Below, piece by piece: positions 2,511-18,314 of a stretch of 21,248 nucleotides of DNA. Within the stretch, counting starts at the first letter, position 1. Each line of letters opens with the position of its first letter. The DNA comes from a virus. A model generated the notes under the pieces. That model was not told where the DNA came from. It saw only the letters and a list, made by a program, of their open reading frames with translations, and did no database searches. The stretch spans positions 1 through 21,248 of the IMG/VR virus record IMGVR_UViG_3300041964_000006; one strand, 5' to 3'. The translations under genes and the position numbers were made by a program.

Positions 2511-3748
2511 TTAGGCCGTGGCCCGAGCAGCCTTCAGAGCGGCCAGCCGCTTGAAGGAATCGGTCTTTTCGACAGACTCGGGCTTCATGCCCGAACGGTA
2601 AAGGTTCTGCACGGTGTCCTCAAGAACCTGAATCTGCTCGTTCACCGGGTTCGTCTGGGACTCGCCAGGGTCGTGCTGACCGTGCTTCTCAAACAGTCCA
2701 GACTTCGGAACGTCCTTGTACGTGTCCTTGAAGGCGTTAAACTGCGCCTCGGTCATGGTCTGCACCAGGGCAGTCATGCTGTCCACCTGCGTGGCCATGA
2801 TCTGCCCGTTCTCCGACAGCGAGGTCACGAAGGACGACCGACCAGCCTTGATGGCCTCGGTGCGGAACGTCTCGAGAGTCTCGATGTGGCGCTGAACGGC
2901 AGCGTGGTCGCTGGTGTCCCGGCCATCGATGCGGAAGGAAACGGCAGCCGGACGAGCGGCGCCGTGGTCGCTGTAGCCACCGTTCTCCGTCGAGCGCTCA
3001 CCCGTGGGGGGCGAGGCGACCGGAGGGGCGCCAGCAGCAGGCGGGGCGGCAGGCGCAGTAGCAGCAGCAGGAATTGGGGTCTGAGTCTGCGGCTCGCCAG
3101 CGTTGCTGTTGCGGCCAGCGTGATCCTGAGTTTCGGGCACTTCATCCTCCTGGGTATCCGTGATGACCTGCGAAAAACGGTGCTCGGTGTCCTTGCGGCC
3201 ATACAAGCCCTCGACTGCCGGAATGTCTACAAAAGCCAAACCCATGACGACTGGATAATACGAGGCGCCTTCGTTTGTCTCATACATGCCGACTTCAAGG
3301 GATCGTGACCGGAAAGTACCACGCTCCCACTTTTCGTATGCATCCGGCTCGGTAATCTCGACATCACATGCCAAGAACTGATCGTCTTCTACGTCACGGT
3401 ACACGGCGGTGAGGTAACCCACCACGCTGTTCGCACTGTAACTGTGGTCAACTCGGAGCGGAACGTTCGGAAAGTATCCATTGTCCCGCAGGAGAACAAA
3501 GTGAAACGCCATCTGCTCCAGATGGGTGGTTTCCCATGTGCTCTCAAAACCCATGCTGTCCTTGAAGGTGCCTGCCTTGAAGATTCGCAGGCCCTTCAGC
3601 GTCCCGCCACCATTGTCATTCTTGAAGGCCTCGACCCTGGAGAAAGCAGAGGTGGTGTGAACCATCTTGCGCTCCAGGGTAGCCGTAGCCTTGTTGCTCA
3701 TTGGTGTAGAAAAGTACTGGGCGGCTGTGGTGTCACGCAAGCACTCAT
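2511..3748 (-). CDS. Capsid maturation protease fused to scaffold
   Basis: The uninterrupted frame runs from TTG (3738-3740) and gives 409 residues. A better start is ATG 3746-3748 with AAGGAG (3758-3763) upstream; it is out of frame by one base, and an extra T would give MSALRDTTAAQYF. Residues about 45-185 resemble a Ser/His prohead protease: His99 in RVDHSYS and Ser147 in FRSRSLEVGMY are the likely catalytic pair, and LAFVDIPAVEGL closes the domain. A Pro/Ala-rich linker follows (about 211-250). The charged C-terminal part (about 265-409), with TMTEAQFNAFKDTYKDVP, looks like an internal scaffold. The protease would cut scaffold and capsid N-arms during prohead maturation. Its place just before the decoration and capsid genes supports this. 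Which protease family it belongs to (HK97 gp4-like or Mu gpI-like) is not settled. Confidence 0.75.
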
Positions 3749-3762
3749 GGTCAGATTCTCCT

Positions 3763-4017
3763 TCATACGCCGATTGTGGCGGGCAGTTCTTCTGCGTTGA
3801 CGGACACGTCCTTGACGATACGCACCTTCGTCCAGTGCAGGCACTCTCTACACCGAATGTGGGCGATGCCTTCCGTCACAACAACTTCAGTATAGAGCCG
3901 GTTGCCCTTCCACGATTTGATGTGAATGAAGCCATGCTTCGTCTTGGTGTCACGACCAGCGACAGCCAGCAGTGGACGCCGGGAACACCCGCAGCGAATC
4001 TCAAGTTCGCTCTTCAT
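3763..4017 (-). CDS. Com-like zinc-binding protein
   Basis: The start ATG (4015-4017) overlaps the upstream stop as ATGA, so I use it rather than the longer open frame back to 4107; the product is 84 residues. It has two cysteine pairs, CGC near the N-terminus (IRCGCSRRPLLAVAG) and CREC near residue 60 (HIRCRECLHWTKV), enough for one zinc site. The middle, HGFIHIKSWKGNRLYTEVVV, looks like beta strands. The layout recalls the Mu Com family of small zinc proteins, which in Mu activates translation of the mom modification gene. Here it sits between the fibre module and the protease gene. An RNA- or DNA-binding role is plausible, but function is inferred only from the cysteines. Confidence 0.55.
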   Translation of the reverse strand: MKSELEIRCGCSRRPLLAVAGRDTKTKHGFIHIKSWKGNRLYTEVVVTEGIAHIRCRECLHWTKVRIVKDVSVNAEELPATIGV

Positions 4018-4679
4018 CGGGGCTTCAGATTTTCCCAAGGTCCGTTGTGGGGATACATTCTCACCCAAGAGTTCCCCACCTTCATTTCCATGATGTACGC
4101 CACCCACACGCCACTGACCTTGCGCTGAATGATCCGAACATCGAGGACATAGACAATCCGGGTAACCGAATCAATAATCGAGATGTTGTCTACGAGGTTG
4201 TAGAGCAGACCGGTAGTCCGGTCACTAGAGTCAAGCAAGGACAAATTGTCCGTCAAGGTACGAGATAGCAACACGCCCAAGAGGGATGAAGTGTTGCTAT
4301 CGACAATGCCAGCCGTGTCCGTCAGGTTGTAATTAAGAATCTTGACGGGTGTGATAATTGAGTCTTCAATGGTCGCTGTATCAGTAACAACCACAATGGT
4401 ATTGCGAGTTAATGAAACCGAGATTGTGTCGGTGATTCCAACCGTGTCAACGAACAACTCGCTCGATGACATCTGGAATGCTTCACGAGTATCAGCAACA
4501 TCTAAAGTATCAAAAACGGTGTAATTTAATACTTGACCGCCAACAGTAGACTTCGACCATGAAACATAGTCGAGAATGCTGACGTTCTCGGTGAGTACCT
4601 CAGTTGCCTGAGTCTGGGCAGCCTCACGTACGTCGGTGACCCCTACCGAATCGGTAAGGGTGTACGTGAGGGCAGCCAT
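4014..4679 (-). CDS. Repeat-containing fibre-like virion protein
   Basis: This 221-residue protein consists mainly of eight copies of a nine-residue motif of the form hydrophobic-x-D/E-x-x-x-hydrophobic-x-D, at residues 8, 29, 55, 76, 98, 119, 142 and 162 (for example LTDSVGVTD, FVDTVGITD, LTDNLSLLD). The period is 20-26 residues, mostly 20-23. The last 50 residues are different (RKVSGVWVAYIMEMKVG, then NSWVRMYPHNG) and could be an end cap or attachment domain. The repeats suggest a stacked beta structure such as a fibre shaft. The ATG overlaps the last base of the upstream GH5 gene's stop, so the two are probably co-translated. Local base composition is more AT-rich than neighbouring genes. 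I know no specific family for it. Confidence 0.7.
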   Translation of the reverse strand: MAALTYTLTDSVGVTDVREAAQTQATEVLTENVSILDYVSWSKSTVGGQVLNYTVFDTLDVADTREAFQMSSSELFVDTVGITDTISVSLTRNTIVVVTDTATIEDSIITPVKILNYNLTDTAGIVDSNTSSLLGVLLSRTLTDNLSLLDSSDRTTGLLYNLVDNISIIDSVTRIVYVLDVRIIQRKVSGVWVAYIMEMKVGNSWVRMYPHNGPWENLKPR

Positions 4680-6964
4680 CAGACGTTGAGACTATCAACC
4701 TGCATTGCGATGGGGCTCGTCTCAGCACCGTAGTAACCACAAGCAATGGTGATGTCCACAAGGTTCGACCAAGAACGAGTAGCGACGTACCGCTGAACGG
4801 TCCACGTACCAGGAACGCCCCCGTTGTTGGGAGCCGTCTCCCAAAAGACTGCCCCGGCGTTGTTGTCTCGGATACGCCACCAATAATGGTTCGTGGAGTT
4901 GTAGACGACCGAAGTCTGAGTGTTCACTGCCGCATGACGCTCGCGGAAGTAAAGTGAACCACCCTCCTTGAGCATCTCGTATGAGTTATCCGAGTTCGCA
5001 GCAATGATGATCGTTGCTTGCGTTGTACCGGCACCCGTACCCGGCACCTGCGGAATCGCAAGAGTTGCTCCGGAGTTGTACAAGTCATACTTCGCCCATG
5101 AAGTCACCGACGCATACGCCGTCACACATGGCAGGTTAAGACGACCATTGACAATGGTCGGAAGACCGTTAGAGTTCCACTTTGAAGTGTCAACACTAGT
5201 TGTGAATGCATCAGTCAAAGTAGCCATCTTCGGCGTACCCGAGGGCGGGGCGACATTGGGCGTCACAGAATCGGACGCAGGCGAAGCCGCACTGGTGCCA
5301 ACGACGTTGGTGGCCTGAACTCGGAAGGTGTACGCCTGTCCGTTAGTCAGACCAGTGAAGTTCATCGAAGTGTTGGCATTGCCAGTCTGACGAGTCACGT
5401 TACCAGTCACACCGGTCGAAGGAGTCACCGTTACGGAGTAGTTCGTGATCGCAGAGCCGCCACTGTTCGGCGCAACCCAACTAACAGCGACTTCACCGTT
5501 ACCGCCAACTACGCCGGGCTTCGGCGGCGCAGAAGGAGCCGTGGCGGCACCACCCGTGTTCATCGGAATGGGCGGCGTCTGTCCCAGACGGTTCTTCGCA
5601 TCCCAAGCGTATTCACCGTTCGGCGTGTACGGCGGAAACTGCGAGTTAACAAGATGCGGGTGGCCTGCATTGGACATAAGCCAAATGCAATACCCGTAAG
5701 TCGCACCCCTTGAGTTATTTCCGTCGCAGTAGTTCAGGAACGCTCGGAAGTCGTGCTCGTAAACCTGAAGATTATACTCAATACCCGACTCACCAAAGAG
5801 AACCGGAAGTCCTGCATCAACAGAAGCAACGAATCCGTAGTCAGGGTGCGAAAACTCCCACTCCTTGAGATAGTGGTGAGGCTTGTAAACTACACCAGGT
5901 CGCAAGATCGGGTCGTTGATTGCGGGGTTGATGCGACGTGAAAAGTTGTTTCCACCCGCCGCAAGGAAAAGCGGAACATGCGGAGCCGCCACGGCACGCA
6001 CGGCATCGATCATGCTGATCCACCGCGCCTTCGCCGGTGCCCAACCATCGCCGGGATTGCTGTGAGGCTCGGCCTGGGTGGCGTAAATGACGTTCGGGAT
6101 GCCGTGGTACCGCTGCGCCAACTTGACTAGCGCATCCTGTTCTGCTTGACCAACGAGGTTCACATGCCAAGTGTTCGGCACCCGTCCAGCCGGGGGGAAT
6201 GTCACATAGACGTTGAAGAACTGTGCCAGAGCAACATAATGATCGAGAAGTGCCAAGTACGCACCATCGTTGTTATTAACCGGGTCCGCAGCGAACATGC
6301 GGTTAAAGATATTCGCTCCCCACGATACAGCCTCAGTAAAGTATGCACCGATACGGCTCGTGAGTTCGTGTGTACTTTGTTGACCAAAGTTCCACTCGTC
6401 GTCACCCATGTTGACGCCACGAAGAAGGACGTCCGCCTGAGTCGAATCGTTTGTGACAATACGAGAACCATTCGTCGTCAACCACGGGACGCCTGTGCTG
6501 ACAGGCGGGTCAACCGGAGCGACTCCGTTGATGACATCAACTCGATCAATAGTCACATACTTGGAACCAGGCACGGCACCCGTGGCATGAATCGTCAACG
6601 TGTGATCGCCTGGACTGACCGTGTTTGACTCAAAGACAATCTGCTGGTACTGTCGAGTGGGTGCGTACTGGTCACCCGCTCCGTACAACACATTGTCAAG
6701 ACCGACACCAAAGGTGGTGTGGTGAGTGTCCTTGGTCCCAATAATACGAAAGGACCCACCACTTGAGTTCACAGTAAACTTCAAGGTAGCAATCGCATTA
6801 GTAGCGTTTGTATAGCGCTCCGAGCCACCGCTGTAACCGACGTGGCTTGCAGAGTTCCAGCCGGACCCGTAGGTCAGACGTGAATCCTCAAAAGAATAAA
6901 TTGTCTCCGGGTCAACAGGCGGTGCGCTGGTGCTACCAATCCTGATCTGAATGTCACGGGCCAT
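4679..6964 (-). CDS. Virion glycosidase: GH5 domain with CBM-like and FN3 domains
   Basis: This is an intact frame of 761 residues. Residues about 20-145 form a beta-rich module (FEDSRLTYGSGW, GYSGGSERYTN) of the type found as carbohydrate-binding modules. Residues about 155-465 look like a glycoside hydrolase family 5 barrel: LLRGVNMGDDEWNFG at the start, Glu299 in ATQAEPHSNP as likely acid/base, His363-His364 in YKPHHY, Glu392 in VLFGESGIEY as likely nucleophile, and Trp428 in YCIWLM. Residues about 476-570 are a fibronectin type III domain (PSAPPKPGVV ... AYTFRVQATN). The C-terminal about 180 residues look like a lectin-type beta sandwich. GH5 enzymes cleave beta-linked glucans, mannans and related polymers. 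In a virion operon it would act outside the cell on host capsule, wall glycan or biofilm. No signal peptide is present, consistent with virion delivery. The substrate cannot be read from sequence. Confidence 0.82.
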   Translation of the reverse strand: MARDIQIRIGSTSAPPVDPETIYSFEDSRLTYGSGWNSASHVGYSGGSERYTNATNAIATLKFTVNSSGGSFRIIGTKDTHHTTFGVGLDNVLYGAGDQYAPTRQYQQIVFESNTVSPGDHTLTIHATGAVPGSKYVTIDRVDVINGVAPVDPPVSTGVPWLTTNGSRIVTNDSTQADVLLRGVNMGDDEWNFGQQSTHELTSRIGAYFTEAVSWGANIFNRMFAADPVNNNDGAYLALLDHYVALAQFFNVYVTFPPAGRVPNTWHVNLVGQAEQDALVKLAQRYHGIPNVIYATQAEPHSNPGDGWAPAKARWISMIDAVRAVAAPHVPLFLAAGGNNFSRRINPAINDPILRPGVVYKPHHYLKEWEFSHPDYGFVASVDAGLPVLFGESGIEYNLQVYEHDFRAFLNYCDGNNSRGATYGYCIWLMSNAGHPHLVNSQFPPYTPNGEYAWDAKNRLGQTPPIPMNTGGAATAPSAPPKPGVVGGNGEVAVSWVAPNSGGSAITNYSVTVTPSTGVTGNVTRQTGNANTSMNFTGLTNGQAYTFRVQATNVVGTSAASPASDSVTPNVAPPSGTPKMATLTDAFTTSVDTSKWNSNGLPTIVNGRLNLPCVTAYASVTSWAKYDLYNSGATLAIPQVPGTGAGTTQATIIIAANSDNSYEMLKEGGSLYFRERHAAVNTQTSVVYNSTNHYWWRIRDNNAGAVFWETAPNNGGVPGTWTVQRYVATRSWSNLVDITIACGYYGAETSPIAMQVDSLNV

Positions 6965-7195
6965 TTACTTGTTCCAAACTTCAGGATCGGGTCCCTTGAC
7001 GACCGTGCCCTCGTCGGGCATTTGATCGATGACATCTTGAGGCATTGGCCAAACTTCAAGATCAGGTCCCGTGACTGGACCGAACTCCTTGGGGTCCTCG
7101 TCACCTAGCACCTCCATGAAGAAGTTGCCGGTGCGAACCGCAATGGGGTTGCCCTCATTGTCTTGGATGACTTCAACCTTCTCGTCGTCAGGCAT
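6965..7195 (-). CDS. Small acidic protein with internal repeat
   Basis: I start at ATG 7193-7195 (MPDDEKVEVI), four bases after the upstream stop; the longer open frame back to 7378 overlaps the upstream gene and is probably a shadow. The 76-residue product is strongly acidic. It ends in a duplicated motif, TGPDLEVWPMP and KGPDPEVWNK, encoded by an imperfect DNA direct repeat. The last codon before the stop abuts the GH5 gene start (6964), so expression is probably coupled. The function is unknown; a small linker or chaperone for the neighbouring virion proteins is possible but not shown. Confidence 0.6.
   Translation of the reverse strand: MPDDEKVEVIQDNEGNPIAVRTGNFFMEVLGDEDPKEFGPVTGPDLEVWPMPQDVIDQMPDEGTVVKGPDPEVWNK
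6974..7075. repeat. 27-base direct repeat pair
   Basis: Copies lie at 6974-7000 and 7049-7075 on the plus strand and differ at three positions. They share CCAAACTTCA, then ATC, GGTCCC and TGAC. They encode the repeated (T/K)GPDxEVW motif in the small acidic protein, so this is an in-gene tandem duplication 75 bases apart. Confidence 0.75.
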
Positions 7196-7199
7196 CGGA

Positions 7200-7775
7200 T
7201 CACGTCCCAAGATCGTGGTTCCAGGTAACAGAAAGGGTGTCCGCTGCCGTCTTGTTGGCGACAGGAGCCAAAAGTGCCCGAGCAATGGTGTTTGCAATCG
7301 GAGCGGCAGTCTGTGTAGCAGTCGCCTGATTGACGAGCACAACCTCTGCGATGTTGTTAGCGGTCGCCACGCCAGCACCCCAAGTGGTCTTCCACTGGAT
7401 GCGCCGACGACCGGTCACCAGGGCAGACGTTGGAAAGCCGCCATCGATGGCGACCAGGCTGGCGGTCACCAGGGTCACAAGGGCGGAACCCGTCCCGCTC
7501 TTGGCAGGAGCCGTCGTGCCGGTGCCCAACTGCATACCGGTCACCTGAGAAGGTGGCGAAGCGATGTTCGCAGCACGCTCGCCGTAGTACCGATCACCAA
7601 CCTCGGTAATGATGTTCTTTTCGATACCCGACTGCTTGAGGTTGCCGAACTCATCGAACAACTCCCAAGTAATGAACCCCTGGATACCAAGGCGTTCATC
7701 AGTGGGCCGCTGCATATCCATTCGTGAACTCATGCGGTCCTTGATGCCAACGAAGGCAACTCCTTGCGACTCCAT
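7200..7775 (-). CDS. Probable minor tail/virion protein
   Basis: The product is 191 residues, with an ATG start and AGGAG 5 bases upstream. Residues about 33-75 (FITWELFDEFGNLKQSG, then IITEVGDRYYGERAAN) followed by GMQLGTGTTAPAKSGTGSAL are of a kind repeatedly seen in small phage tail proteins near fibre genes. The second half is beta-rich (RRRIQWKTTWGAG, AEVVLVNQATAT). It lies between one of the two BppU-like gene pairs and the GH5 gene, so a baseplate or fibre-linking role is likely. The 84 bases upstream are non-coding and could hold a weak promoter, although I see no convincing one. Exact function unknown. Confidence 0.65.
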   Translation of the reverse strand: MESQGVAFVGIKDRMSSRMDMQRPTDERLGIQGFITWELFDEFGNLKQSGIEKNIITEVGDRYYGERAANIASPPSQVTGMQLGTGTTAPAKSGTGSALVTLVTASLVAIDGGFPTSALVTGRRRIQWKTTWGAGVATANNIAEVVLVNQATATQTAAPIANTIARALLAPVANKTAADTLSVTWNHDLGT

Positions 7776-7859
7776 GACACTCCTGTGACTTTTGAGGGGG
7801 GACAGAAGAACGGTACCAGACAGCCACAGCGGGCCGAAAGGTTAGTCAATAAAAGTATC

Positions 7860-8099
7860 TTAGGAACGAAAGCGAAAATCGCCCTCAATAGCATTTACGG
7901 GCGTAGCGTCTCCGATCCAGGCGACGACCTCAAACCCAGAGGGTCGTGGAAGGTTGGCATTCGTTCCATGACGAACGACGCCGAAAGCCTGCGTGATGCC
8001 AATGGTACTTTCAAAGACATCGACAACAGCGATGCTCTCCGCAGGGTAGACAACGACTTCAACACCGTTGTCAATAACTTCAACAGTGTTGTTTGCCAT
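7860..8099 (-). CDS. Small fibre-associated protein, partner of BppU-like gene (copy 2)
   Basis: This 79-residue protein starts at an ATG placed directly after the upstream stop (TAAATG). The N-terminus TVEVIDNGVEVVVYPAES resembles the N-terminus of the collagen-like protein at 11872-12213 (VEIVQTPTELVVETTAAP), which also follows a BppU-like gene. The C-terminal half (PRPSGFEVVAWIGDATPVNA, then GD) resembles a short domain common in tail proteins of actinobacteriophages (established pattern, from memory). It probably attaches to, or is folded with, the neighbouring tail or fibre proteins. Confidence 0.62.
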   Translation of the reverse strand: MANNTVEVIDNGVEVVVYPAESIAVVDVFESTIGITQAFGVVRHGTNANLPRPSGFEVVAWIGDATPVNAIEGDFRFRS

Positions 8100-8456
8100 T
8101 TAACTCAACCCCGGCTTCGTGACCTGATCCAGAATCGTGAAGGTTCCTGACAGCCAGGTTCGCTTCTTCCCGGCATTGTCCTTGAGTTCAAGGTCCCACA
8201 TGTAGGTGCCGACCGGCATCGTCTCAGTAATTTCGGACTCAATGGTGCAGAGAACAAGACCAGGCGCAACAGCGTGGTTGATCGTGACGGCCATGGTCGT
8301 CATCAGGTCCTTTTGAGCATTCGTGTTGCGAACTTGCGCAGTACCCGTCCAACTCGTCAGAACGAGGGGCTCCTGCGTCGTCTTGTTTCGTAGACGAAAT
8401 GACTGCTCAAAGTCGTCGCCCTGCACACATTCAAGATTATATGCAGCGGGCCTCAT
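8100..8456 (-). CDS. BppU-like baseplate/fibre adaptor (copy 2)
   Basis: I choose ATG 8454-8456, with GAGG about 8 bases upstream, over an open frame reaching 8636 that overlaps the upstream gene. The 118-residue product is a clear paralogue of 12210-12566, also 118 residues. Shared blocks include CVQGDDF near residue 10, LTxWTGxAxVR near 37, VTIN, MPVGxYxWDLEL and RTWLxGTF near the end. The fold looks like the Ig-like N-terminal domain of BppU baseplate upper proteins (PF10651), which anchor receptor-binding proteins. It is followed without a gap by a small partner gene, as in copy 1. Confidence 0.7.
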   Translation of the reverse strand: MRPAAYNLECVQGDDFEQSFRLRNKTTQEPLVLTSWTGTAQVRNTNAQKDLMTTMAVTINHAVAPGLVLCTIESEITETMPVGTYMWDLELKDNAGKKRTWLSGTFTILDQVTKPGLS

Positions 8457-8509
8457 AAACCGTCCTCGGAATAGAAATATGATCTTCTGTAGCAGCCATC
8501 GTACACCGC

Positions 8510-9667
8510 TCATAGGCGGGGAGTTCCAGTACCCAAGGGTGACTTCGTGCGGACACCCAGCCAGGTGCGTTCTGAGGTAGAGCCAAGCCAGAGACGCTTG
8601 CTCATGAAACCAGTTACAGCAGTTTCGTTGCCCCACGCATCCTTGAACGTGTCACCGAAGTTAAAGTCCCACGTCAAAACGCCAAGAACACGGAAGTCAG
8701 CAAATCGTGCAGCACTGACTCCGAAGTCCCGTAGGCCATGCTTGGTTGCAGTCTGGTTGTGTGTCGAGGTAACCGCTAACTGCTGAACGCCGTTAACCCG
8801 GATACTAATGCTGGAGCCTTCTAGTACGGCTTCGATTACGTCGTTCGCAGCGGCACCCGTACTCAATGTGCCCATCGAAAAAAAGGTGCCACCCTCTCGG
8901 CGAAACAGACCGTTAGACTCGTTAGTGATAAAGTTATTCGCGTTGTCCGTAGAGCGAAAGCAGATTCCGCTAGAACCGATGGCGCTCTGCCGAACGCCAG
9001 GTGTGCAGTCAGCCAACCCCGAGTCGATGACGGCGGTGTTCTGGTCACCAGCACCGCTAGTGACAAGGTAAGCATCCGTGCCGTTCGTTCCCCACGTGCC
9101 GTTGTTCGGCGTCCAGGCTTGCCCCGTGTCAGCAGTACCGAGCGTCGTCGTGCTAGTGCGGGAAAACAAGTCCCGTACCACCATGTCGTTGATTGTGACT
9201 CGGATATCATCAAAGAAAGTAGTTGCACCGTTGACCTGGTTATACAACTGAAGTTGAGGAGAAAAAAAAGCAGCCTCAGCAGGGACAATGATCGACCGGG
9301 CCGTGCCGGTCACCCACACATTCGGAGCATTTGTTGGACTGGAGTAACCGAGGTTGCTGATAAGGCCACCTACAGCCGAATAGAAGCCTATGCGCATGTT
9401 CGGGTAGTAGTTGCCAATTGTCTTGATACGCACCGTGAAATCAAGAAAGTCGCCTGGGGTGCAGGGAATGGCGTTGGCGAAAGGCAACATGAAGTCCATC
9501 TGACCGGTGCCGCTGTTGGTCACCTGCCACGACTTAGAACCCGAGTCCACATTGGCGAGATTGGTGTTCCGAGTGACCGTAAGGCCCGTACCAGCGACCC
9601 ACAGGATCGGGTCATTGACATCACCTTCAGCAGTGCTCAGATCGCCGGTGAGAAGTTCAGTGGGCAT
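8510..9667 (-). CDS. Lectin-like tail fibre/receptor-binding protein
   Basis: This is an intact 385-residue frame. Residues about 1-160 look like a carbohydrate-binding jelly roll (SKSWQVTNSGTGQMDFMLPF, RIKTIGNYYPNMRIGFYSA, TTFFDDIRVTI near its end). Residues about 165-325 look like a concanavalin-type sandwich (DLFSRTSTT, ICFRSTDNANNF, HGLRDFGVSAARFADFRV). A short tail with WDFNFGDTFKDAWG closes the protein. Such two-sandwich proteins are typical minor tail or receptor-binding proteins. The stop of the upstream gene is two bases before the ATG. No catalytic residues are recognisable, so binding rather than cleavage is the likely role. Confidence 0.68.
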   Translation of the reverse strand: MPTELLTGDLSTAEGDVNDPILWVAGTGLTVTRNTNLANVDSGSKSWQVTNSGTGQMDFMLPFANAIPCTPGDFLDFTVRIKTIGNYYPNMRIGFYSAVGGLISNLGYSSPTNAPNVWVTGTARSIIVPAEAAFFSPQLQLYNQVNGATTFFDDIRVTINDMVVRDLFSRTSTTTLGTADTGQAWTPNNGTWGTNGTDAYLVTSGAGDQNTAVIDSGLADCTPGVRQSAIGSSGICFRSTDNANNFITNESNGLFRREGGTFFSMGTLSTGAAANDVIEAVLEGSSISIRVNGVQQLAVTSTHNQTATKHGLRDFGVSAARFADFRVLGVLTWDFNFGDTFKDAWGNETAVTGFMSKRLWLGSTSERTWLGVRTKSPLGTGTPRL

Positions 9668-9669
9668 GG

Positions 9670-10080
9670 CTACCCAGCGCTCGGGCTGTCGTTCTCCGGG
9701 GGACCCAGGTACGTCAAGTCAAGTGAAGCAGCAGGATTCACCTGACGTGCCAATGCCAAGATAACATCGGCGTAGATAGTCAAGTTCGACGGCACCGGCT
9801 GCAAGCCATGTGCTGTCGCCCAGTCATCGATACGACGACGCTGTGCAGGCGTAATCGTCGTCTTGCGTCCCTGCGCCCGAAGGTCCGCCCAGGACGTGCC
9901 GGTCACCAAACGGGTAACTGGACTCGTGGCATCCAGGGTGTCGCTAGGCGCAACAAAGATCGCCAGCACCTCATTAATCGCCAGCACCGCATGGGGAGTT
10001 CCTGGTGAGACATTCGCAGAGTAAAAAGACATCGAGCCATCCTGCATCATCACGGCATCCGAGAGATAAACGCTAGCCAT
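9670..10080 (-). CDS. Hypothetical protein in fibre module
   Basis: This 136-residue protein has an ATG overlapping the upstream stop as TAATG, so it is probably co-translated. The N-terminal half is beta-type (VYLSDAVMMQDGSMSFYSA, AVLAINEVLAIFVAPS). The second half is helical and basic (TTITPAQRRRIDDWATAHGL, then IYADVILALARQ). I do not recognise the family. Its place between two probable minor tail proteins suggests a structural or assembly role. Confidence 0.6.
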   Translation of the reverse strand: MASVYLSDAVMMQDGSMSFYSANVSPGTPHAVLAINEVLAIFVAPSDTLDATSPVTRLVTGTSWADLRAQGRKTTITPAQRRRIDDWATAHGLQPVPSNLTIYADVILALARQVNPAASLDLTYLGPPENDSPSAG

Positions 10081-10643
10081 TACAGCGCCGTTGCAGTAAA
10101 GTTGCTACCGGTTCGCAGTGTAATTGCACTTGAAGCAACCTCGGTAGCGGCTTGAAGTTGCACCGTCCCGGCTGCACTGGGGATGATGATGCCTCTAATC
10201 CACGCAGGATGATCGGTAGTGATCGCCACCGTGGCCGTGCTCATAACCGAGTCGCCAGACGTAGTGAGTGGTCCCTCAAATACACTGTCGGTACCGTCTG
10301 CTGCGAATCCAGCGATGCGCACGTTCGCAGCAAAGTTGGAAAAGGCAGGGGTAGTGAGGCCAAGCCGAATACCGGTTGTAAGTGCTGCGGACCTGTACAC
10401 GATCGCAAAGTCAAATCTATACACAACACCCGAAGCGACAGTAAAAGACAAACCCGTCACGTTGGCCAGAGCAGTAGCCGTGATACCAGCGGTGTCCGCT
10501 GTCAACCTTCCGGAGAGTGCCGGAGGAGGAATCGAACGCCAACGGTTGTAAAGTTGTGCAACTCGCTCATGCCAAAGCAAACCACCCGCCTCACCCTCGG
10601 TTAAACTTTCATCAATCGGGCCAGGCAGTTCCGTAAAAGACAT
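10080..10643 (-). CDS. Probable minor tail protein, beta-sandwich C-terminus
   Basis: The start ATG 10641-10643 has AAGGAG 4 bases upstream and is preferred over the frame back to 10760, which overlaps the fibre gene. The 187-residue product has a helical N-terminus (VAQLYNRWRSIPPPALSGR). A C-terminal domain of about 130 residues follows, with VTGLSFTVASGVVYRFDFAI, PAWIRGIIIPSAAGTVQLQA and a final TLRTGSNFTATAL. That pattern is common in small trimeric jelly-roll domains of phage tail and capsid-fibre proteins. Its role is probably structural or receptor binding. Confidence 0.65.
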   Translation of the reverse strand: MSFTELPGPIDESLTEGEAGGLLWHERVAQLYNRWRSIPPPALSGRLTADTAGITATALANVTGLSFTVASGVVYRFDFAIVYRSAALTTGIRLGLTTPAFSNFAANVRIAGFAADGTDSVFEGPLTTSGDSVMSTATVAITTDHPAWIRGIIIPSAAGTVQLQAATEVASSAITLRTGSNFTATAL

Positions 10644-10651
10644 TAGGCTCC

Positions 10652-11863
10652 TTAACCGATGATGATGACTCGGTAGGCGTTCGCCGTAGGCGCACTCGCA
10701 AACCGCAGAGTCACCGTGTTCGCATCCGTCATCTCCACATCGCACTCTACCTCGGCCCACGGGGTCGTGTTGGAGCGCACGCTGACAACCACGTCCCGAG
10801 TGTTCAGGTTGTGCGTAAAGGTCGGAGAAGCGTTGGCAGGAATGTCAGCAGCAAACTTGCCAGTGGCAGCGAGGTTGGTCCGAGCGCCAGCAGCGGTCGT
10901 GGCACCCGTGCCACCCCGAGCAACTCCAATCTCAGTAGCCGCCCAAGTACCCGTTCCAATGGTACCAAGAGTCGTAATCGCAGTCTGGCCGGTCCAGGCG
11001 GTGTTGATCGAGAACGTCGTGCCAGTCAGCGTCAGCGAAGTACCGTCAGCAGCATAGACCGTGTTACCTTCAGCGGACTTGACCCAGGTCTGGTTGGTCG
11101 TACCAAGCGTGGCGATCGTGGCAGTCTGAGTGTAAACGTCGCCAGCGCCAGCGGTACCCGCTTCCACGAACACCGTTGCGTTGTTCAGTTCCGCAGCGGC
11201 GTCAGCGTCCGTCGCACGTGCCCAGGCGCCCGCAGCAGCGACGTAGATGCCGTTTGCGGCAGCCGCAGTCTGTCCAGCCAGGAGGACCCGTTCGCCAGCA
11301 ACCAGGGTCACGCCGTCAATCGTCAGCAGCCCTGAAAGGGTGGCGACGTTCGCAGTCGAGACGACCCGGACCGGAACCTTCCAGTCAAAGCCCTGAATTG
11401 CCGCCGACAACTGCCCGAACGTGGCAGCGTCGGTTGCAACCGTGCCGTCCGCAAGACCTGTAATCTTCTGGCTACCAAAGGCGACCGCTGCGGTCGGTGC
11501 CGCCATCTGGTCAAGTCGGTTCGTCCGCACCTGCGTGTCGAAGCCCGACACGTCAGTAGCGGCGATGGCGAGCAGCGTCTTTGCCTGCGCAACGGTAAGT
11601 TCCTCACCGCCACCCGCACCTGCGGTCACACGACCGAGGAACCGTGACGAGTTAGCAAACTGGATCGCCGCCGTTCCGGTACCACCGGAAACACCAAGAG
11701 TCTGAGTGGCAGTTCCGTTGTGGAACTTCATTGCCTTGGCGGTGCTGTCGTACCAGACAATACCCTCGACGGGGGTGCCGTGGTCGCCTGCAAGAGTCTG
11801 AAGAACCAGATTGAGAATCTGGTTCTTGTTCATGTCCAGAGAGGACAACCGAAGCGTAGCCAT
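10652..11863 (-). CDS. Tail fibre protein
   Basis: This intact 403-residue frame starts at ATG 11861-11863 with TAGGAG 5 bases upstream. It shows several standard fibre elements. The N-terminal attachment-type segment contains LVLQTLAGDHGTPVEGIVWYD. Then come FGSQKITGLADGTVATDAAT and a central domain VVSTANVATLSGLLTIDGVT followed by AAAANGIYVAAAGAW. The repeat element ATEIGVARGGTGATTAAGAR is well known from phage fibre repeat families. The last 65 residues (FTHNLNTRDVVVSVRSN onwards) form a C-terminal tip domain like the one that ends the collagen-like protein upstream. It probably forms a trimeric fibre that binds the host surface. Confidence 0.8.
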   Translation of the reverse strand: MATLRLSSLDMNKNQILNLVLQTLAGDHGTPVEGIVWYDSTAKAMKFHNGTATQTLGVSGGTGTAAIQFANSSRFLGRVTAGAGGGEELTVAQAKTLLAIAATDVSGFDTQVRTNRLDQMAAPTAAVAFGSQKITGLADGTVATDAATFGQLSAAIQGFDWKVPVRVVSTANVATLSGLLTIDGVTLVAGERVLLAGQTAAAANGIYVAAAGAWARATDADAAAELNNATVFVEAGTAGAGDVYTQTATIATLGTTNQTWVKSAEGNTVYAADGTSLTLTGTTFSINTAWTGQTAITTLGTIGTGTWAATEIGVARGGTGATTAAGARTNLAATGKFAADIPANASPTFTHNLNTRDVVVSVRSNTTPWAEVECDVEMTDANTVTLRFASAPTANAYRVIIIG

Positions 11864-11871
11864 GCAGACTC

Positions 11872-12213
11872 CTACGTGAGGTAAGCGATACCGGAAAAGG
11901 CGTTGGGGTAGGTCAAAGTCATAACGCTAGTGCTCACGTAAGTGACCGCAGCACCCTCGATCGTGTTTCCCGAAGTGTCGTGAACAATGATGCCCGATGG
12001 GTACTTGGTGAGTCCATGATTGATCGTCCAAACCGCAGCAGGTGTGTCCTGGCTGTGAACATACGAGACACTGCCGCCGCCCACTCCAGCAGGCCCTTGC
12101 GGACCCGCTGGACCCTGTGGACCCTCAATAAGAATCTCGACAACCGCAGGCGCAGCGGTCGTCTCTACGACTAGTTCAGTGGGAGTTTGGACAATCTCGA
12201 CTTCTACGCTCAT
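11872..12213 (-). CDS. Collagen-like short fibre protein (copy 1 partner)
   Basis: The ATG overlaps the upstream stop as ATGA. The product has 113 residues: an N-terminal strand region (VEIVQTPTELVVETTAAP), a short collagen-type run of Gly-x-y triplets (GPQGPAGPQGPAG, residues about 31-43), and a C-terminal domain with VSYVHSQDTPAAVWTINHGL and IIVHDTSGNTIEGAAVTYV ending GIAYLT. That last domain is frequent at the ends of phage fibre and collagen-like proteins. The triplets imply trimerisation. Its N-terminus resembles the small partner protein at 7860-8099, supporting a duplicated gene pair. Confidence 0.72.
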   Translation of the reverse strand: MSVEVEIVQTPTELVVETTAAPAVVEILIEGPQGPAGPQGPAGVGGGSVSYVHSQDTPAAVWTINHGLTKYPSGIIVHDTSGNTIEGAAVTYVSTSVMTLTYPNAFSGIAYLT

Positions 12214-12566
12214 GGATCAATCCTTGTGTACTGCTTCAAGATTGAGAATGTACCTTGAAGCCAGGTACGTCGCAGGCCAGCAGCGTTTACAAGTTCAAGG
12301 TCCCAGTTGTAAACTCCAACCGGCATGAGTTCAGTCACCGTGTCAGCCAGTTCCAGAAGCACCATGCCAGGGTTCACCGGCTGATTGATGGTCACCGTGA
12401 AAGGCGTTACCAAGACATCATCAAGTGTGCGGCGAACGTGTGCGCTGCCAGTCCAGCCAGTCAGGTTCAGTGGGTTAAGCGTGTCGGGATCACGAAAGCG
12501 GATCGGCTGAACGAAGTCGTCACCCTGCACGCAGTCCATATTGTAAGTAGACGGCTTGTTGGTCAT
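12210..12566 (-). CDS. BppU-like baseplate/fibre adaptor (copy 1)
   Basis: This protein has 118 residues and is a paralogue of 8100-8456 with equal length and the same conserved blocks (CVQGDDF, LTGWTGSAHVRRT, VTINQPVNPG, MPVGVYNWDLEL, RTWLQGTF). The ATG (12564-12566) overlaps the portal gene stop by four bases, so it is the first gene of the fibre module and is probably translated with the portal. The Ig-like fold suggested by the strand pattern fits the BppU N-terminal family, which connects receptor-binding proteins to the virion. It could instead sit at the head-tail joint, given its portal neighbour. Confidence 0.7.
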   Translation of the reverse strand: MTNKPSTYNMDCVQGDDFVQPIRFRDPDTLNPLNLTGWTGSAHVRRTLDDVLVTPFTVTINQPVNPGMVLLELADTVTELMPVGVYNWDLELVNAAGLRRTWLQGTFSILKQYTRIDP

Positions 12567-14275
12567 GGCTTCTCCAAGTCGCTGATAGCCGAATCCAACA
12601 TGCGGTCGAACAGAGCCATAAAATCAGCAGGCCCGCTGTACTCGTTCATGCCGAGTTCGGCGGCGTCTGAGAGCCAGCGTTCGCACTGTTCGTAGACACG
12701 ACTTGTAAGTGCCGGGGCTTCGTCTCCAAATCCTTCGGCTCGGAGGGACTCAGTAAAACGGCGCCGATAACCGAGTGAAGGCTTAAATCCAGCACCGAAG
12801 GTGTTGTCTCGCCAAGCCTTCTCAACCTGGCCCTTAATGCGGGCGGATACGTCACGGCCAGTCGCCCGAGGTTCTCCAACACCACGGCGACCCGTGTCCT
12901 TGTCGGGACGGGCGCCCCGCTCACGATCATCGCCAACCGGCTCTGTGCCGTCGCCTTCTCCTGGGAGTGCATTAGGGTCCTCCTGCACGATCCGAACCTG
13001 CTTGAGAGTCATGCCCAACGCCATGCCCAACTCGTCCAGATCAACAGTCGCCTTATCCTTGCCGATCAATTGCGTGACGATTGCACGAAGAGTCTCAACA
13101 GACTCCTTGCCCATCTTTCGGTAATGCCACTGGGCACGGGGGGCCTTGGGCGAGAAGTTGAAGCCCTTGAGTCGCTCGCAGACATAGCGGTCAATGTACT
13201 CCTTCATGTCACCAGCCAAGGCGTTCAGCATCCAAAGCCAGGTCTGAGTGTGCTGCACGCCGAGATTGTTGGACCCCACGTCGCCCGTTCGCATGAGCAG
13301 GATGGGGGTGAAGATAGCCAGAGACATTTCTTCGTCCAGGCGCATCATGTACCGCTCAAAGTCAGCACCACGCATCTGAGACTCAAGGTACTCAATGTCG
13401 TACTCGTAGTCAGGGCGTCCACCGCTGCCACCGGAACCAGGCAGCGTGTCGCTCGGCAAGATGACCGTGCCCCGATTGCGGAGGTTCATCAAGATCAACT
13501 CCATGTGCTGACGACCCGTAGTAGCGGTGCCGTCTGGAGCGATTACGTCGGCGTCGAAGGGCGCACGACCAACCGGGGTCGGCTCACCGAAGCGCTCGTA
13601 GTAGCGGTTCGCAAAGAGGTGCATCAGTGTGGAGAAGTACCAAGGCGCAAATGCAGCCTTGAGCAACTTGCGACCGTAGTAGTCGCCGTTCTCCATCATC
13701 AGCGGGTACCACAGCGTGTTCTCGGGCGGGATGGCGTACCGCTGGCCCCACTGCTTGATCCCGTCGTACTCTTTGAACTTCGGACGGGGCTGACCCTGCG
13801 GAGCGTAACCCTGCACCGTCTTCCAGTTGATTTCGCAGTCTTCTGGAATCAGGTCCTTGAACTTGCCAATTTCGATGCGGCGCTCGGTGGTGTTGTTCTC
13901 CCACTCAATGACCATGGGCGAAAACCCAGCCCAGAGCGCCTGCGACATGCCCCGGATCAACCGGGTCCACATCTCACGAAGATTGTCCTCGATCATCGTG
14001 GCAATCTTCTTGTCTTCGCACTCCACCCACCAGTCGATCTGGTGCAGCATGAACGTGAGAACACTCAACGAGGCGTTAATCTGCGGGTTGTGACGCATGG
14101 CCCGGTAGTCCGCAAGCGTCAACTGCGAAAGGTCGAACTGAAGAATGGCACCGCCAGGCATTTGGTTGTAGGAGACGTCCCTACCAGCCCAGTCGCCAAA
14201 CGCAGGCCCCATCTTGGGAGGATCGGCCTTCTTGTAACTCTGGATAGGCCGTCCATCGGGACCAAGTAGCGACAT
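12563..14275 (-). CDS. Portal protein (DUF935 / Mu gp29-like)
   Basis: This intact 570-residue frame starts at ATG with GAAGG upstream. Typical features of DUF935-type portals include YRAMRHNPQINASLSVL (residues about 57-73), WWVECEDKK, a helical stem region, and the RYYERFGEPTPVGRAPFD motif. LSLAIFTPILL-type helix sequence (MSLAIFTPILLMRTGD) follows, and DPNALPGEGDG comes before a charged linker (about 435-480, Arg/Asp/Gly-rich). The last about 90 residues are an extra helical domain. Portals form the dodecameric ring through which DNA enters and leaves the head. It follows the terminase genes as expected. It is followed not by capsid genes but by the fibre module, which is unusual. Confidence 0.88.
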   Translation of the reverse strand: MSLLGPDGRPIQSYKKADPPKMGPAFGDWAGRDVSYNQMPGGAILQFDLSQLTLADYRAMRHNPQINASLSVLTFMLHQIDWWVECEDKKIATMIEDNLREMWTRLIRGMSQALWAGFSPMVIEWENNTTERRIEIGKFKDLIPEDCEINWKTVQGYAPQGQPRPKFKEYDGIKQWGQRYAIPPENTLWYPLMMENGDYYGRKLLKAAFAPWYFSTLMHLFANRYYERFGEPTPVGRAPFDADVIAPDGTATTGRQHMELILMNLRNRGTVILPSDTLPGSGGSGGRPDYEYDIEYLESQMRGADFERYMMRLDEEMSLAIFTPILLMRTGDVGSNNLGVQHTQTWLWMLNALAGDMKEYIDRYVCERLKGFNFSPKAPRAQWHYRKMGKESVETLRAIVTQLIGKDKATVDLDELGMALGMTLKQVRIVQEDPNALPGEGDGTEPVGDDRERGARPDKDTGRRGVGEPRATGRDVSARIKGQVEKAWRDNTFGAGFKPSLGYRRRFTESLRAEGFGDEAPALTSRVYEQCERWLSDAAELGMNEYSGPADFMALFDRMLDSAISDLEKP

Positions 14276-14276
14276 G

Positions 14277-14435
14277 TTACCTTCTCTTTGGCGGTGACCA
14301 TGAGGTCGAGTCGGTCGGTGGGAGCGGGGCCTTTAGGCCGAGGTCCCTGATGGCAGGATGGCCGTAACCACCATTGCCATTGACGACTGCTTGCTGCTGT
14401 GTTCGCTCTTCACGTGCGTCATCAAGGCGAATCAC
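14277..14435 (-). CDS. Small ORF between terminase and portal
   Basis: A GTG start (14433-14435) overlapping the end of the large terminase gives 52 residues: MIRLDDAREERTQQQAVVNG, then a Gly/Pro-rich part ending SWSPPKRR. The stop (TAA) lies one base before the portal ATG, and the portal's ribosome-binding site is inside this frame. A longer frame back to 14480 exists, and an alternative ATG (TGATG at the terminase stop) gives only 29 residues in another frame. The tight packing favours a real coupled gene, but the function is unknown and the start is uncertain. Confidence 0.5.
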   Translation of the reverse strand: MIRLDDAREERTQQQAVVNGNGGYGHPAIRDLGLKAPLPPTDSTSWSPPKRR

Positions 14436-15223
14436 CTTTGCGGCGATAAGCCCGGTCACCCATGAGTGTAAACACGACACCGGCCATTGCGTCGGCTACG
14501 TCTTTAGACCCGTCTGGCGGGTGGTCAACCTTGTCGCCATTGTCTACCAGTTCGCTGAGTTCCTTTACCACTATCTTCGTCAAAGACGTATCGTCGGGCC
14601 GCAGACGAATCATGTAGGGCGGGAACTCAATGCGGTTTTCGTAGATCGCCTCACGCAGGTCGTAGTACGGGAGAATCTGGCGATCCACCGAGACGATTTC
14701 GACCTCGATGCGCTTGCGCTCCAACTGCTGTCGGGTGTCGTGGACTGGAAGCCGTCCATCGTCACCTTCTTCAAGTTAAGTGATACTCGTCACGCAACCG
14801 GTAGATCATGCGCCGCACGTCACCGAGAAAAATCTCACGACCGGCCGCAGCGTGAATCCGCAGCAGCATGTCGAAGACAATGTACGGCTTCATCTCGCCG
14901 TCAACTCGATGACCTCACGCACGTGGCCCATGGCGAAAGCCCAGGGCGTCACCGTTGGCCGAGTACGCCAAGTCGATGTGGCCAACTCGCTTCAAGCGCT
15001 CATTCGCCCGGAACCAGTCAGCGATATCGCCCTCGCACGTCCACCGGGCCATCGCCGTCCGTGTCGTTGTGCTCGACCCACCGCTTCTCAGCCTCTTCAA
15101 TCTTGTAGACCAGGCTGATGAACGGGTCAGCCGGTCGCAGGCGGGATGCCTGCGAGGTCACGCAGCGCCTTCTCGGGGTTGTTCTCAAACTCACGTCGGT
15201 AGACGTTCGGAATCTCAATCAAG
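14422..15223 (-). CDS. Large terminase, C-terminal nuclease part (frame-broken)
   Basis: This is the second half of the packaging motor. It reads in pieces: NLIEIPNVYRREFENNPEKA, DPFISLVYKIEEAEKRWVEH, then ERLKRVGHIDLAYSANGDAL with a metal-binding Asp, MKPYIVFDMLLRIHAAAGRE, KKVTMDGFQSHDTRQQLERK with a second Asp, and a final intact stretch (14422-14724) holding the third acidic motif DHPPDGSKDVADAMAG. This is the RNase H-like nuclease typical of TerL, which cuts concatemeric DNA. At least seven one-base shifts separate the pieces; several that I checked are repaired in short homopolymers. Order and motifs are preserved, so the protein is probably functional in the real phage. Confidence 0.75.
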
Positions 15224-16116
15224 TTATCCGTCCCAGGCCATCTTGGCAGCCAAGGGTGGAACGATGTCGTGTCGCTTGCTGTCGTACCAGAACGAATCAC
15301 GCTCGCCGGTCACGGGATCGGTGTGCTTGTCCCAGCCGAACGACTCCCAAATCGCCATGCGGACCGCATGGGCGTTCGGGTCCTTCTTCATCTCCTGATA
15401 CTTCTTAGCAGCGAACCCGTTGCCCTTCTTCATCTGACCGATGACCAGCAGGAACCCCTTGTCACCGAATCGACTAGTGATACGAGACGAGATGGTCGTG
15501 TAGCCCTGCTCGGCGTAGTCCTTGTTCGCCGTCACCTTGTGCGAGTCGGCCTCATCCAGAATGCCACCGAGAATGTTGTAGCCCTCAAAGGTCGTTTCGG
15601 CAGAGTCACCGGGCAGAATCCAGATGTCCTTTTGTGGAAAGCGAATCTGGTTCTTGAAGTTCTTGTCGTAGGGAAAGTTGTTTTGGAACCAAGGCGAGTA
15701 TTCGATTCGTGCCTTGATGTCGCCAAACACCACCTCCTTGGCCTGGGGGCCAGACGTAGACATCTGCATGAAGGCAATACGTGAACCCGGCAGCAAGGTT
15801 GAAGTAGCCCTGCGGGTCAGCCAGGACAGAGCACCCAGTGCGCCAGGTAGGGCAGCACGATTGAGGCAACGGTCGTCTTGCCGATGCCGATGCCGCCCGT
15901 AATCATGGCGAGCGGAAACTGAGTCATCCGATCGCCTTGACTTCCTTGCCCATGATGGTTTCAAGTTCAGGCCATGATGGCAGGGCGAACTCGACCAGCG
16001 ATGTTCAGGTAGTCGGGGCCGACAAACTCACGGATTGACGCAGGACGCTGCCAGAACTGAGGATTGTCTTGGATGAACTTGAGTTCCCGCAGGATACTCA
16101 TGTTCGACACAGCCAT
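15224..16116 (-). CDS. terL: Large terminase, N-terminal ATPase part (frame-broken)
   Basis: The start is ATG 16114-16116, with GAGGG 8 bases upstream, two bases after the small terminase stop. It reads MAVSNMSILRELKFIQDNPQ, then PSWPELETIMGKEVKAI, then MTQFPLAMITGGIGIGKTTV with the Walker A motif, LADPQGYFNLAAG and RIAFMQMSTSGPQAKEVVFG. The longest intact piece (about 15224-15800) carries Walker B NILGGILDEADSHK and the coupling region FLLVIGQMKKGNGF. At least four frame changes separate the pieces, one of them placing a stop within the Walker A frame (at CPG*). Each is repaired by a one-base change such as CC to C or TT to T. Together with 14422-15223 this gives a protein of about 565 residues, normal for TerL, which powers DNA packaging through the portal. 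Confidence 0.82.
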
Positions 16117-16118
16117 CG

Positions 16119-16613
16119 CTAGTCCCTCGGGATCGTGGCAACGTCGATGGCCCTGGCCCGCAACTCCTCAGGCTCTTCCAACACCGCCTTCACCATGTCA
16201 GGCGTGATGTTCTCTCGCTTGATTCCACGCTTCACGAACTCCTCGACAATAGAAGCCATGAGCGCCTGCGGGAGTGCTGGCGTTGATCGTCTGCTGATTG
16301 AAGGTGATCTTCGTGGCACTGGCCGACGCCAGGTCGGGGTTGACCAACTTCGCCAACTTCACACCACGGTCGAAGAGTGTGTTGACGATCTTCGTCACCT
16401 CGGGGTTCAGTTCACCCTCAGCGTTCTCGTCCAGCAAGCCAACCTGCAACCGACGAGACTGGACCGCCAGCAGCGTGCCCAGACCCTCGATGATCGTTTC
16501 GCTGTCACGGGTCTTGAAGAACTGCGCCAGTTCTTGCGATTCGCTGTCAGGCACGATGCACACGGCTCCTGTTCGGAAGTATCGACATGAGTCCTGCAAA
16601 GAACACACGTCAC
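16119..16613 (-). CDS. Small terminase subunit with N-terminal zinc ribbon (frame-broken)
   Basis: A GTG start (16611-16613) overlaps the upstream stop as GTGA. The first frame gives MTCVLCRTHVDTSEQEPCAS then Cys, with Cys3/Cys6 and Cys18/Cys21 forming a likely zinc ribbon. An insertion of one C joins it to SESQELAQFFKTRDSETIIE and a helical core ending KITFNQQTINA. A second one-base shift leads to LPQALMASIVEEFVKRGIKR and TPDMVKAVLEEPEELRARA, ending at 16119. About 164 residues result. Small size, helical content and position two bases before the large terminase support a small terminase, which recognises the packaging site. The zinc ribbon may take part in DNA recognition. Confidence 0.65.
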
Positions 16614-17406
16614 AGAGGAAACTTGTCGCCCCGCATGATATCTTGCTTTACCTTCAGCATGATACGGGTGTGGACGGGCTTGTGGCTAGGATCATCAGGG
16701 TCCACCGGGGCAAAGCCCTTGGCCTTCATTGCAACTGCTTCTTGGAAGTACACCGCAGCCCACAACGCCGACTTCATGTTGTAGAGACAACGATTACGAG
16801 GCACCTTCAGTTCGTGTGGCCGCGTTCCGAGCAGATTCAGCCAGTACGAATGGTCAGGGGCTCGTTCGTACGACACAATCTTGCCGGTAGGAAGAACAAC
16901 ACTTCCCTTGGCAGCCTGCGTGCGTGCGTCCAGATCGATAGATCGGTAACCCAAGCCGAACAGCGTTTGATGACCGTAAACACCATGCACATGCATGATG
17001 GCTTCGGGATAGTCCTCCTGAACATCACGCAGCAACCGGAAGAATGCCTTGCCGGTTGAAGTAACCGCTGATGGTGCGCTGGTCACGAACACTCGATGAT
17101 GCTGGTCCTCGGGCGGCTTACTCATCAAGGTTTCCAGGCGTTCCATCGGCTCGCCGTAGCGCCAGACAGAAAAGACCTTGCCGTTATCTTCATGGCCCGG
17201 CGCAATGAACTGTGCGCCCTGCTCGGTGTTGCCGATCACGAATAACTCGTACGGTTGAGTACCGTAGTACAAGTCTGACCAACGCTTTGGGTCGATATTG
17301 CGCTTCTTGAGATAGCCCACGTCCCACACCATCTTGCGGATACCCTAACTCAAGCATCTCCTTGATGACATGCTGTGGGATTGCGAATCCATACCTCGAC
17401 CGGCAT
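16610..17406 (-). CDS. Unrecognised conserved-type protein at start of late block
   Basis: The intact frame 16610-17332 gives 240 residues beginning MVWDVGYLKKRNIDPKRW. Coding potential extends upstream in two other frames (RYGFAIPQHVIKEMLELGY, preceded by MPVE from ATG 17404-17406) through two one-base shifts, so the full protein is about 265 residues. Visible stretches include YYGTQPYELFVIGNTEQGAQ, VHGVYGHQTLFGLGYRSIDL and MKSALWAAVYFQEAVAMKAK. I do not recognise the family and see no catalytic motif. Its stop overlaps the small terminase start (GTGA), so it belongs to the packaging operon and is the first late gene after the divergent control region. No clear ribosome-binding site precedes 17406, so the start is tentative. 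Confidence 0.65.
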
Positions 17407-17469
17407 AGGGGGAGACGGTAGCGGGCCTAGATAGGCATAGCGAGCATCTTGAAGAAATCGCCCGAAAAC

Positions 17470-17557: not shown

Positions 17558-18314
17558 TTGTCTGACAACCTTGATGTAATCAAGGCTCTCGGATCACGCT
17601 TCATCGAACGACGTGACGTAAAGGCAGTTCAGGGCGAAAAAATCGCCTGGCAGCCTGTCAAGACGAAGTTCACGATGCAGGATTTTGAGGACCATCTGTC
17701 TGGGAGGCGCACCTTTGGTCACTATCTGGTGTCGCCGGATGGCAATTGCAAGTTCTTCGCTTTTGATATTGACCTGGATAAAGAAGGTCAGTACTTCGAT
17801 GCGGCGGGCACGTTTCACCCGTGCAACCCTCGTGAGGTCATTCTTGAACGGGGACCACCCAGGATGGCTGGAGTTCGCACACGACCTGTCCAGCATCGCA
17901 GCGGGGTTCGCTTCCAAGATCAACAGAATCTTGGGCCTGCCTACCGCAGTTGCCTGGTCTGGAGGCAAGGGTCTGCATGTCTATGGGTTCACGGGTACGA
18001 AGAAGGCCAGCGTCGTCAGGACACTTGCGGCAGGACTGATGGATGATGCAGGGTGGCTGCCCACCCGTGGCGACAACTTCTTTAAGCACCCCCAGCACGC
18101 CAACGACCCACTCGCCTACCCGCACGTGACCATCGAAGTGTTCCCCAAGCAGGACACCGTTGGCTCGGATGGGTTCGGCAACCTCATGGCACTTCCGCTG
18201 GGCATCCACGGGATCACGAAGCAGGAAAAGTACTTCTGTCGGCTGAACGAGGACTCGTGGACTGTGGCTGATCCGATCAATGCACTCAGTGGCGACGTGT
18301 TGCCGTGGGAGTGA
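17558..18314 (+). CDS. Archaeo-eukaryotic-type primase/primase-polymerase (one frameshift)
   Basis: The start is TTG 17558-17560, with CAGGGGG about 7 bases upstream. The first frame runs to about residue 97 (...CNPREVILER) and the second continues GDHPGWLEFAHDL to the stop at 18314; removing one G from the GGGG run joins them, giving 251 residues. The sequence carries the three primase motifs of the archaeo-eukaryotic primase superfamily: the metal-binding DxD in KFFAFDIDLDK (Asp70, Asp72), SGGKGLHVYGF with the nucleotide-binding His, and VTIEVFPKQD. The FPKQ form is like that of TOTE-type primases (family knowledge). It would make primers at the phage replication fork. The GTG of the next gene overlaps its stop (GTGA). 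Confidence 0.78.

Follow-up and report, generated by a model that had tools for sequence, protein, structure and literature searches.

In phage Sf14, gp30 and gp31 form neck whiskers that were seen by cryo-EM, and their genes lie between those for the portal and the protease (PMC11821841). Sf14 gp30 is a chain of PDB 9c39, and the same protein in Bas63 is named 'Collar protein'. In T5, the tail collar formed by p132 holds the L-shaped fibres; the authors of that study tied p132 to the N-terminal domain of BppU (PMC10038345). Gordonia phages of cluster CS (Woesvirus, Montyvirus, Demosthenesvirus and Getseptimavirus) carry a portal-adjacent gene for a 'minor tail protein'. Here we analysed a 21,248-bp virus fragment from IMG/VR (IMGVR_UViG_3300041964_000006; the window), in which a long run of fibre-type genes separates portal from protease, and we confirmed that this placement of fibres in a head operon is real and recurrent.

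The head genes of the window (terminase, portal, protease, decoration and cap_E capsid) lie on the minus strand, as do all genes of the fibre block and its boundaries. The upstream boundary is the portal gene (12563–14275; PHROG113 3.2e-64; Portal_Mu 6.3e-33), whose product shares 45% identity over 98% with Gordonia phage portals; a portal search placed the closest cultured relatives among siphophages of Gordonia, Tsukamurella and Rhodococcus, with identities up to 45–47%. The downstream boundary is a gene for a small CxC...CxxC protein (3763–4017; PHROG20049/6679), beyond which lie the head maturation protease (2511–3740, start codon uncertain; PHROG976 5.7e-42), a lambda-D-like head decoration protein (2044–2496; PHROG5455 1.5e-45) and the cap_E major capsid protein (977–2029; PHROG29 1.4e-34; PF03864). 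The block itself comprises 12 ORFs (12566–4014, ~8.5 kb), all co-oriented, collinear and tightly packed, with a G+C content of 0.51–0.61, somewhat below that of the capsid end (0.60–0.63). A 4-bp ATGA overlap joins the portal gene to the first adaptor gene, and another joins the last fibre gene (4014–4679) to the CxC...CxxC gene. Homologues of the latter sit just upstream of the protease in relatives both with and without fibre genes, so the CxC...CxxC gene, conserved in this position across the lineage, is an ordinary member of the head operon outside the fibre block, and the block limits are therefore 12566–4014, as a sequence-only reading of the window had placed them. By eye, the CxC...CxxC protein (3763–4017) resembles a zinc ribbon; Pfam gave no match for it. 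Gene calls, profile matches and the ATGA overlaps together confirmed the existence of the ~8.5-kb block between portal and protease. Farther upstream, divergent primase and helicase genes at 17.5–20.5 kb recur in Gordonia phage MrWormie. Homology runs throughout both terminase subunits (small and large), the primase and the helicase, yet their coding sequence is split over several frames (14283–17421 and 17558–20450). This probably reflects numerous sequencing or assembly indels in the contig, or decay of the phage.

The block opens with adaptor 1 (12210–12566; PHROG1084 1e-20), a 118-aa protein with a predicted Ig-like fold of the T5 p132/BppU kind. Next comes a 113-aa collagen-like protein of the GPQGPAG type (11872–12213), recognized from its sequence, GPQGPAGPQGPAG, and ending in a C-terminal domain common to the fibre; its homologues are a protein of L068 (38% over 99 aa), a distant relative from a metagenome, and JonJames gp57. 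The 403-aa fibre (10652–11863) has a YadA-stalk segment (YadA_stalk 7e-7) and matches PHROG2647 (4.4e-58), a protein of L068 (53% over 145 aa), JonJames gp58 (42% over 288 aa) and PDB 9nx3 (1e-19); the predicted structure of its residues 120–403 had a pLDDT of 37, too low for a fold search. It is followed by ORFs for proteins of 187 aa (10080–10643), 136 aa (9670–10080) and 385 aa (8510–9667), which matched no family, the 385-aa protein being possibly carbohydrate-binding as judged by eye. Adaptor 2 (8100–8456; PHROG1084 3e-20) is a paralogue of adaptor 1 (54% identity over 113 aa), and the 79-aa ORF product encoded right after it (7860–8099) is a possible fibre N-terminus partner. The remaining genes encode a 191-aa tail-fibre-like protein (7200–7775; PHROG5417 3e-12; PHROG4176, tail fibre, 2e-4), a 76-aa protein (6965–7195, within ORF 7378–6965), a 761-aa GH5 glycosidase-like protein with an Fn3 domain (4679–6964; Cellulase PF00150 1.7e-11; fn3 3e-13) and a 221-aa ORF product with TD...I.DS repeats noted by eye (4014–4679). 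In the 761-aa protein, AEP and GESG motifs occupy the places of the acid/base and nucleophile residues of GH5 enzymes. For most small slot proteins, adaptor included, a Pfam search returned nothing significant. The 'lectin-like' label in the sequence-only reading applies, by eye only, to the 385-aa protein.

An AF2 model of adaptor 1, built with its paralogue and its L068 homologue (pLDDT 82, pTM 0.71), was an Ig-like beta-sandwich like p132 and the N-terminal domain of BppU. Its best structural matches were T5 p132 (7qg9_L) and the DT57C counterpart (8hqz_Q), both with Z 11.1, followed by the baseplates of Douge (8zdo_a, 9.8) and 80alpha (9.3), with the NF5 baseplate also among the matches. 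Neck collar proteins of Sf14 and Bas63 matched more weakly (9c39_J and 9mt4_H, both Z 8.9), as did the P74-26 neck and the R4C adaptor Ig domain (both 8.1), and Z values of about 8 are common for such folds according to the fold-search tool's own note. In sequence, PHROG3304 ('L-shaped tail fiber protein assembly') matched both adaptors (E 5.4e-7 and 4.2e-9), and comparison with Sf14 gp30 revealed no significant similarity (hhalign E 0.061, 30 columns). Related adaptors are encoded between the baseplate genes gp8 and gp7 in P-HM1 and between capsid and connector genes in Streptomyces phage TunaTartare. Homology between the adaptor and the N-terminal domain of the cluster CS slot proteins was undetectable by profile comparison (hhalign E 0.48) and was rejected as unproven. 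JonJames gp56, which is collinear with the adaptor, was likewise set aside as a homologue because its similarity was below significance.

Relatives gathered from phage records, IMG/VR and species genomes showed that the portal–protease junction varies widely in content. A single-protein portal search of viral contigs found no match. Across 122 non-duplicate loci with both portal and protease (a few IMG copies of isolates are still among them), the median portal-to-protease distance was 367 bp, with 83 loci at ≤600 bp and 21 at >1.5 kb, measured between detected protein ends and hence overstating the slot where the protease start was missed. The slot of the window, at 8.8 kb, was the longest of the 122. 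Most relatives have only ~0.2–0.5 kb, usually occupied by one small CxC...CxxC gene, which agrees with the usual portal-then-protease order assumed in the sequence-only reading, and the long slots in 21 of 122 loci, together with the same module in L068 and its metagenomic counterpart L067, show the recurrence that it had named as support for a stable architecture. Orchid, GordTnk2 and Trogglehumper have an empty junction; TIN2 has a 141-aa anchor only; and GMA7, Monty, Katyusha and MrWormie encode there a fibre-type protein whose 140-aa N-domain is conserved while its C-terminus changes. This cluster CS N-domain is carried by 96 phage records and, among the matches listed, lies nearly always right after the portal. 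Its profile matched none of the ORFs of the window, where the block occupies the same position as in cluster CS, directly after the portal and ahead of the small CxC...CxxC gene. Database records call the slot genes minor tail protein, esterase or hydrolase, and the open-access Gordonia phage papers examined do not describe the slot. Taken together, these loci make it very probable that the portal–protease junction is a standing slot of the lineage for exchangeable adsorption modules.

Several further features of these loci were observed. In L006 (IMGVR_UViG_3300033553_000108), the slot (4252–9331) encodes a 1314-aa protein with dozens of 'QSLQPVTQSATGT' repeats, adjoined by a 377-aa protein with the same 'QSLQPVTQSATGT' repeats. 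A portal/protease relative with a short slot, SKOF01000338.1, came from a metagenome bin named Thioalkalivibrio, which may mean that it was wrongly binned or that this actinophage-like lineage has a wider host range. In Woes, Minos and other Gordonia phages, portal matches fell in two pieces ~0.8–1.1 kb apart within a single annotated gene, which suggests that some portals of cluster CS contain an intein or another kind of insertion.

Homologous parts of the slot modules also occur in tail loci. JonJames gp57 and gp58, homologous to the collagen-like protein and fibre of the window, are encoded past the tape measure and the minor tail proteins. The cluster CS anchor domain was found in the tail loci of WilliamBoone (gp57, E 2e-39, or 1e-8 with an earlier profile that lacked gp57, which is itself part of the current one) and Trogglehumper (gp48, E 6e-10), the latter having an empty portal–protease slot of its own. 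Trogglehumper gp48 and JonJames gp59 have a C-terminal domain in common (45%), and JonJames gp59 in turn has a weak relationship to the fourth protein in the L068 slot. The same kinds of module thus occur in the head operon and in the tail locus. These tail-locus parts in JonJames, WilliamBoone and Trogglehumper fit the earlier proposal that an adsorption module had moved into the head operon, but the slot is a standing one rather than the product of a single event. Three large proteins follow the tape measure in Monty and Katyusha, whose slots are filled, and more do so in Orchid, TIN2 and Trogglehumper, a comparison of few genomes that is confounded by phylogeny.

Assembly artefact, products that stay out of virions and capsid decoration all rank low as readings of the block. 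The fragment has many frameshifts in terminase, primase and helicase, as might a chimaeric contig or assembly artefact. However, ATGA overlaps mark both ends of the block, and the same slot is filled in many isolates. Moreover, L068 fills this slot with an adaptor, a collagen-like protein and a fibre encoded in the window's order, again with ATGA overlaps at both ends, and is identical over 6,787 bp to L067, which comes from another metagenome accession. Because L068 and L067 hold the same module, slot and junctions even though the L068 portal is only ~48% identical to that of the window, misassembly is very unlikely, and we give an artefactual origin almost no credence. The sequence-only reading had named empty junctions in relatives combined with misassembly at the block ends as grounds for abandoning it; empty junctions do exist, but misassembly is contradicted by L068 and L067. 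Most relatives have an empty slot, making its cargo dispensable to the lineage, as expected if the genes were morons whose products act outside virions, for example as soluble depolymerases or exclusion factors. This too is highly improbable, given the fibre, collagen-like and anchor architecture, the homologues in tail loci and the overlap of the genes within a structural operon. Binding of the fibre and its partners to the capsid shell, as head fibres or decoration, is somewhat easier to entertain but still improbable. The fibre matches PHROG2647, labelled 'head decoration' (4.4e-58), and PDB 9nx3, an entry that bears the name 'Capsid decoration protein' (1e-19). Yet 9nx3 comprises residues 915–1151 of a Bixzunavirus virion protein (1151 aa) whose gene neighbours code for minor tail proteins and endolysin, so the name is probably an annotation rather than a localization, and we rejected the entry as proof of capsid location. 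The window also encodes a separate lambda-D-like decoration protein (2496–2044), and the same fibre family is found in the JonJames tail locus. The source of the 9nx3 C-terminal fragment is gp242, a 1151-aa fibre-like virion protein (3199–6654 of the Bixzunavirus locus L161); the name 'Capsid decoration protein' may be propagating through databases.

The placement of fibres in a head operon does not by itself mean a location on the head. Beyond the established gene content, slot recurrence, predicted fold of adaptor 1 and tail-locus homologues, we infer that the slot proteins are incorporated in the virion, that their target is a carbohydrate and that they attach to the tail rather than the head. 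We lean towards an exchangeable adsorption cassette in the standing portal–CxC...CxxC slot that is most likely anchored to the tail, since tail-related proteins give the best fold matches and tail loci are where such parts are otherwise encoded. In this cassette, each of the two short Ig-like adaptors, both of the T5 p132/BppU type (12566–12210 and 8456–8100), precedes fibre components: the collagen-like protein and the trimeric-type fibre after adaptor 1, and the short partner followed by the tail-fibre-like, glycosidase and repeat proteins after adaptor 2. The adaptors may contribute to a ring on the virion, where they would clamp the N-termini of fibres, and the distal proteins may attach to surface polysaccharide or cleave it before the tail is committed to injection. 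The strongest rival to tail anchoring is attachment at the neck, which we consider less likely but a real contender because of the Sf14 precedent. Adaptors of neck whiskers or collar fibres would bind the head–tail connector and carry the long fibres and glycosidase, with co-assembly explaining the adjacency to the portal. Sf14 encodes its whisker proteins gp30 and gp31 exactly between portal and protease, and the decoration and cap_E capsid genes follow; the adaptor model matches 9c39_J and 9mt4_H (Z 8.9), the P74-26 neck and the R4C adaptor Ig domain (8.1); and the related TunaTartare adaptor, between capsid and connector genes, adjoins the latter. The neck matches, the Sf14 gene order and the TunaTartare adaptor also count against the tail reading, as do the undetectable homology between adaptor and cluster CS N-domain and the non-significant similarity of JonJames gp56. 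Against the neck, similarity of the adaptor to gp30 in sequence was below significance (hhalign E 0.061), Z values near 8 are common for such folds, tail-tip proteins score higher, and homologous fibre parts are found elsewhere in tail loci. The earlier suggestion that these proteins decorate the head or portal vertex therefore keeps some force from the Sf14 whiskers in the same slot and the shared fold, but sequence similarity is insignificant and T5 p132 fits better. In its fullest form, in which whisker-type adaptors at the portal vertex would bear long collagen-like fibres along with a glycoside hydrolase as a neck-anchored adhesion array, neck attachment seems rather unlikely. Such an array, if real, would be a second receptor-binding device at the head end of a long-tailed siphophage, and co-assembly of the parts would keep its genes next to the portal gene.

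Whichever part of the virion they occupy, these modules identify the portal–protease junction as a recurrent site of adhesin exchange in a lineage with cultured members that grow easily. They offer a route to receptor-binding genes missed by rules that look after the tape measure, and the anchors and fibres common to slot and tail loci warn against reading virion position from gene position. Monty, Katyusha and similar Gordonia phages would allow a direct test of tail against neck.

The locus shares features with several described systems. With cluster CS, it shares the portal/protease/decoration/capsid lineage and a fibre-type gene in the same slot. The cluster CS slot, however, contains one gene encoding 380–840 aa, with a different anchor domain (hhalign E 0.48) and variable C-termini that include esterase-like and beta-helix-like forms (by eye and from record names), whereas about 12 genes, including those for two BppU-type adaptors, fill the slot of the window. 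The Ounavirinae whiskers of Sf14 and Bas63 resemble the window in having a gene between portal and protease and an Ig-like domain, but the Sf14 slot encodes only proteins of 166 and 110 aa, without long fibres and with sequence similarity below significance. The gp56–gp60 module of JonJames (Yvonnevirus) has homologous collagen-like (gp57) and fibre (gp58) proteins in the same order, although it lies after the tape measure and minor tail genes and its gp56 is only doubtfully related to the adaptor. With T5 p132 and TP901-1 BppU, components of the tail tip collar and upper baseplate, the window adaptor shares its predicted Ig fold, small size and adjacent fibre genes; it differs in being encoded in a head operon and in its low overall identity (18%).
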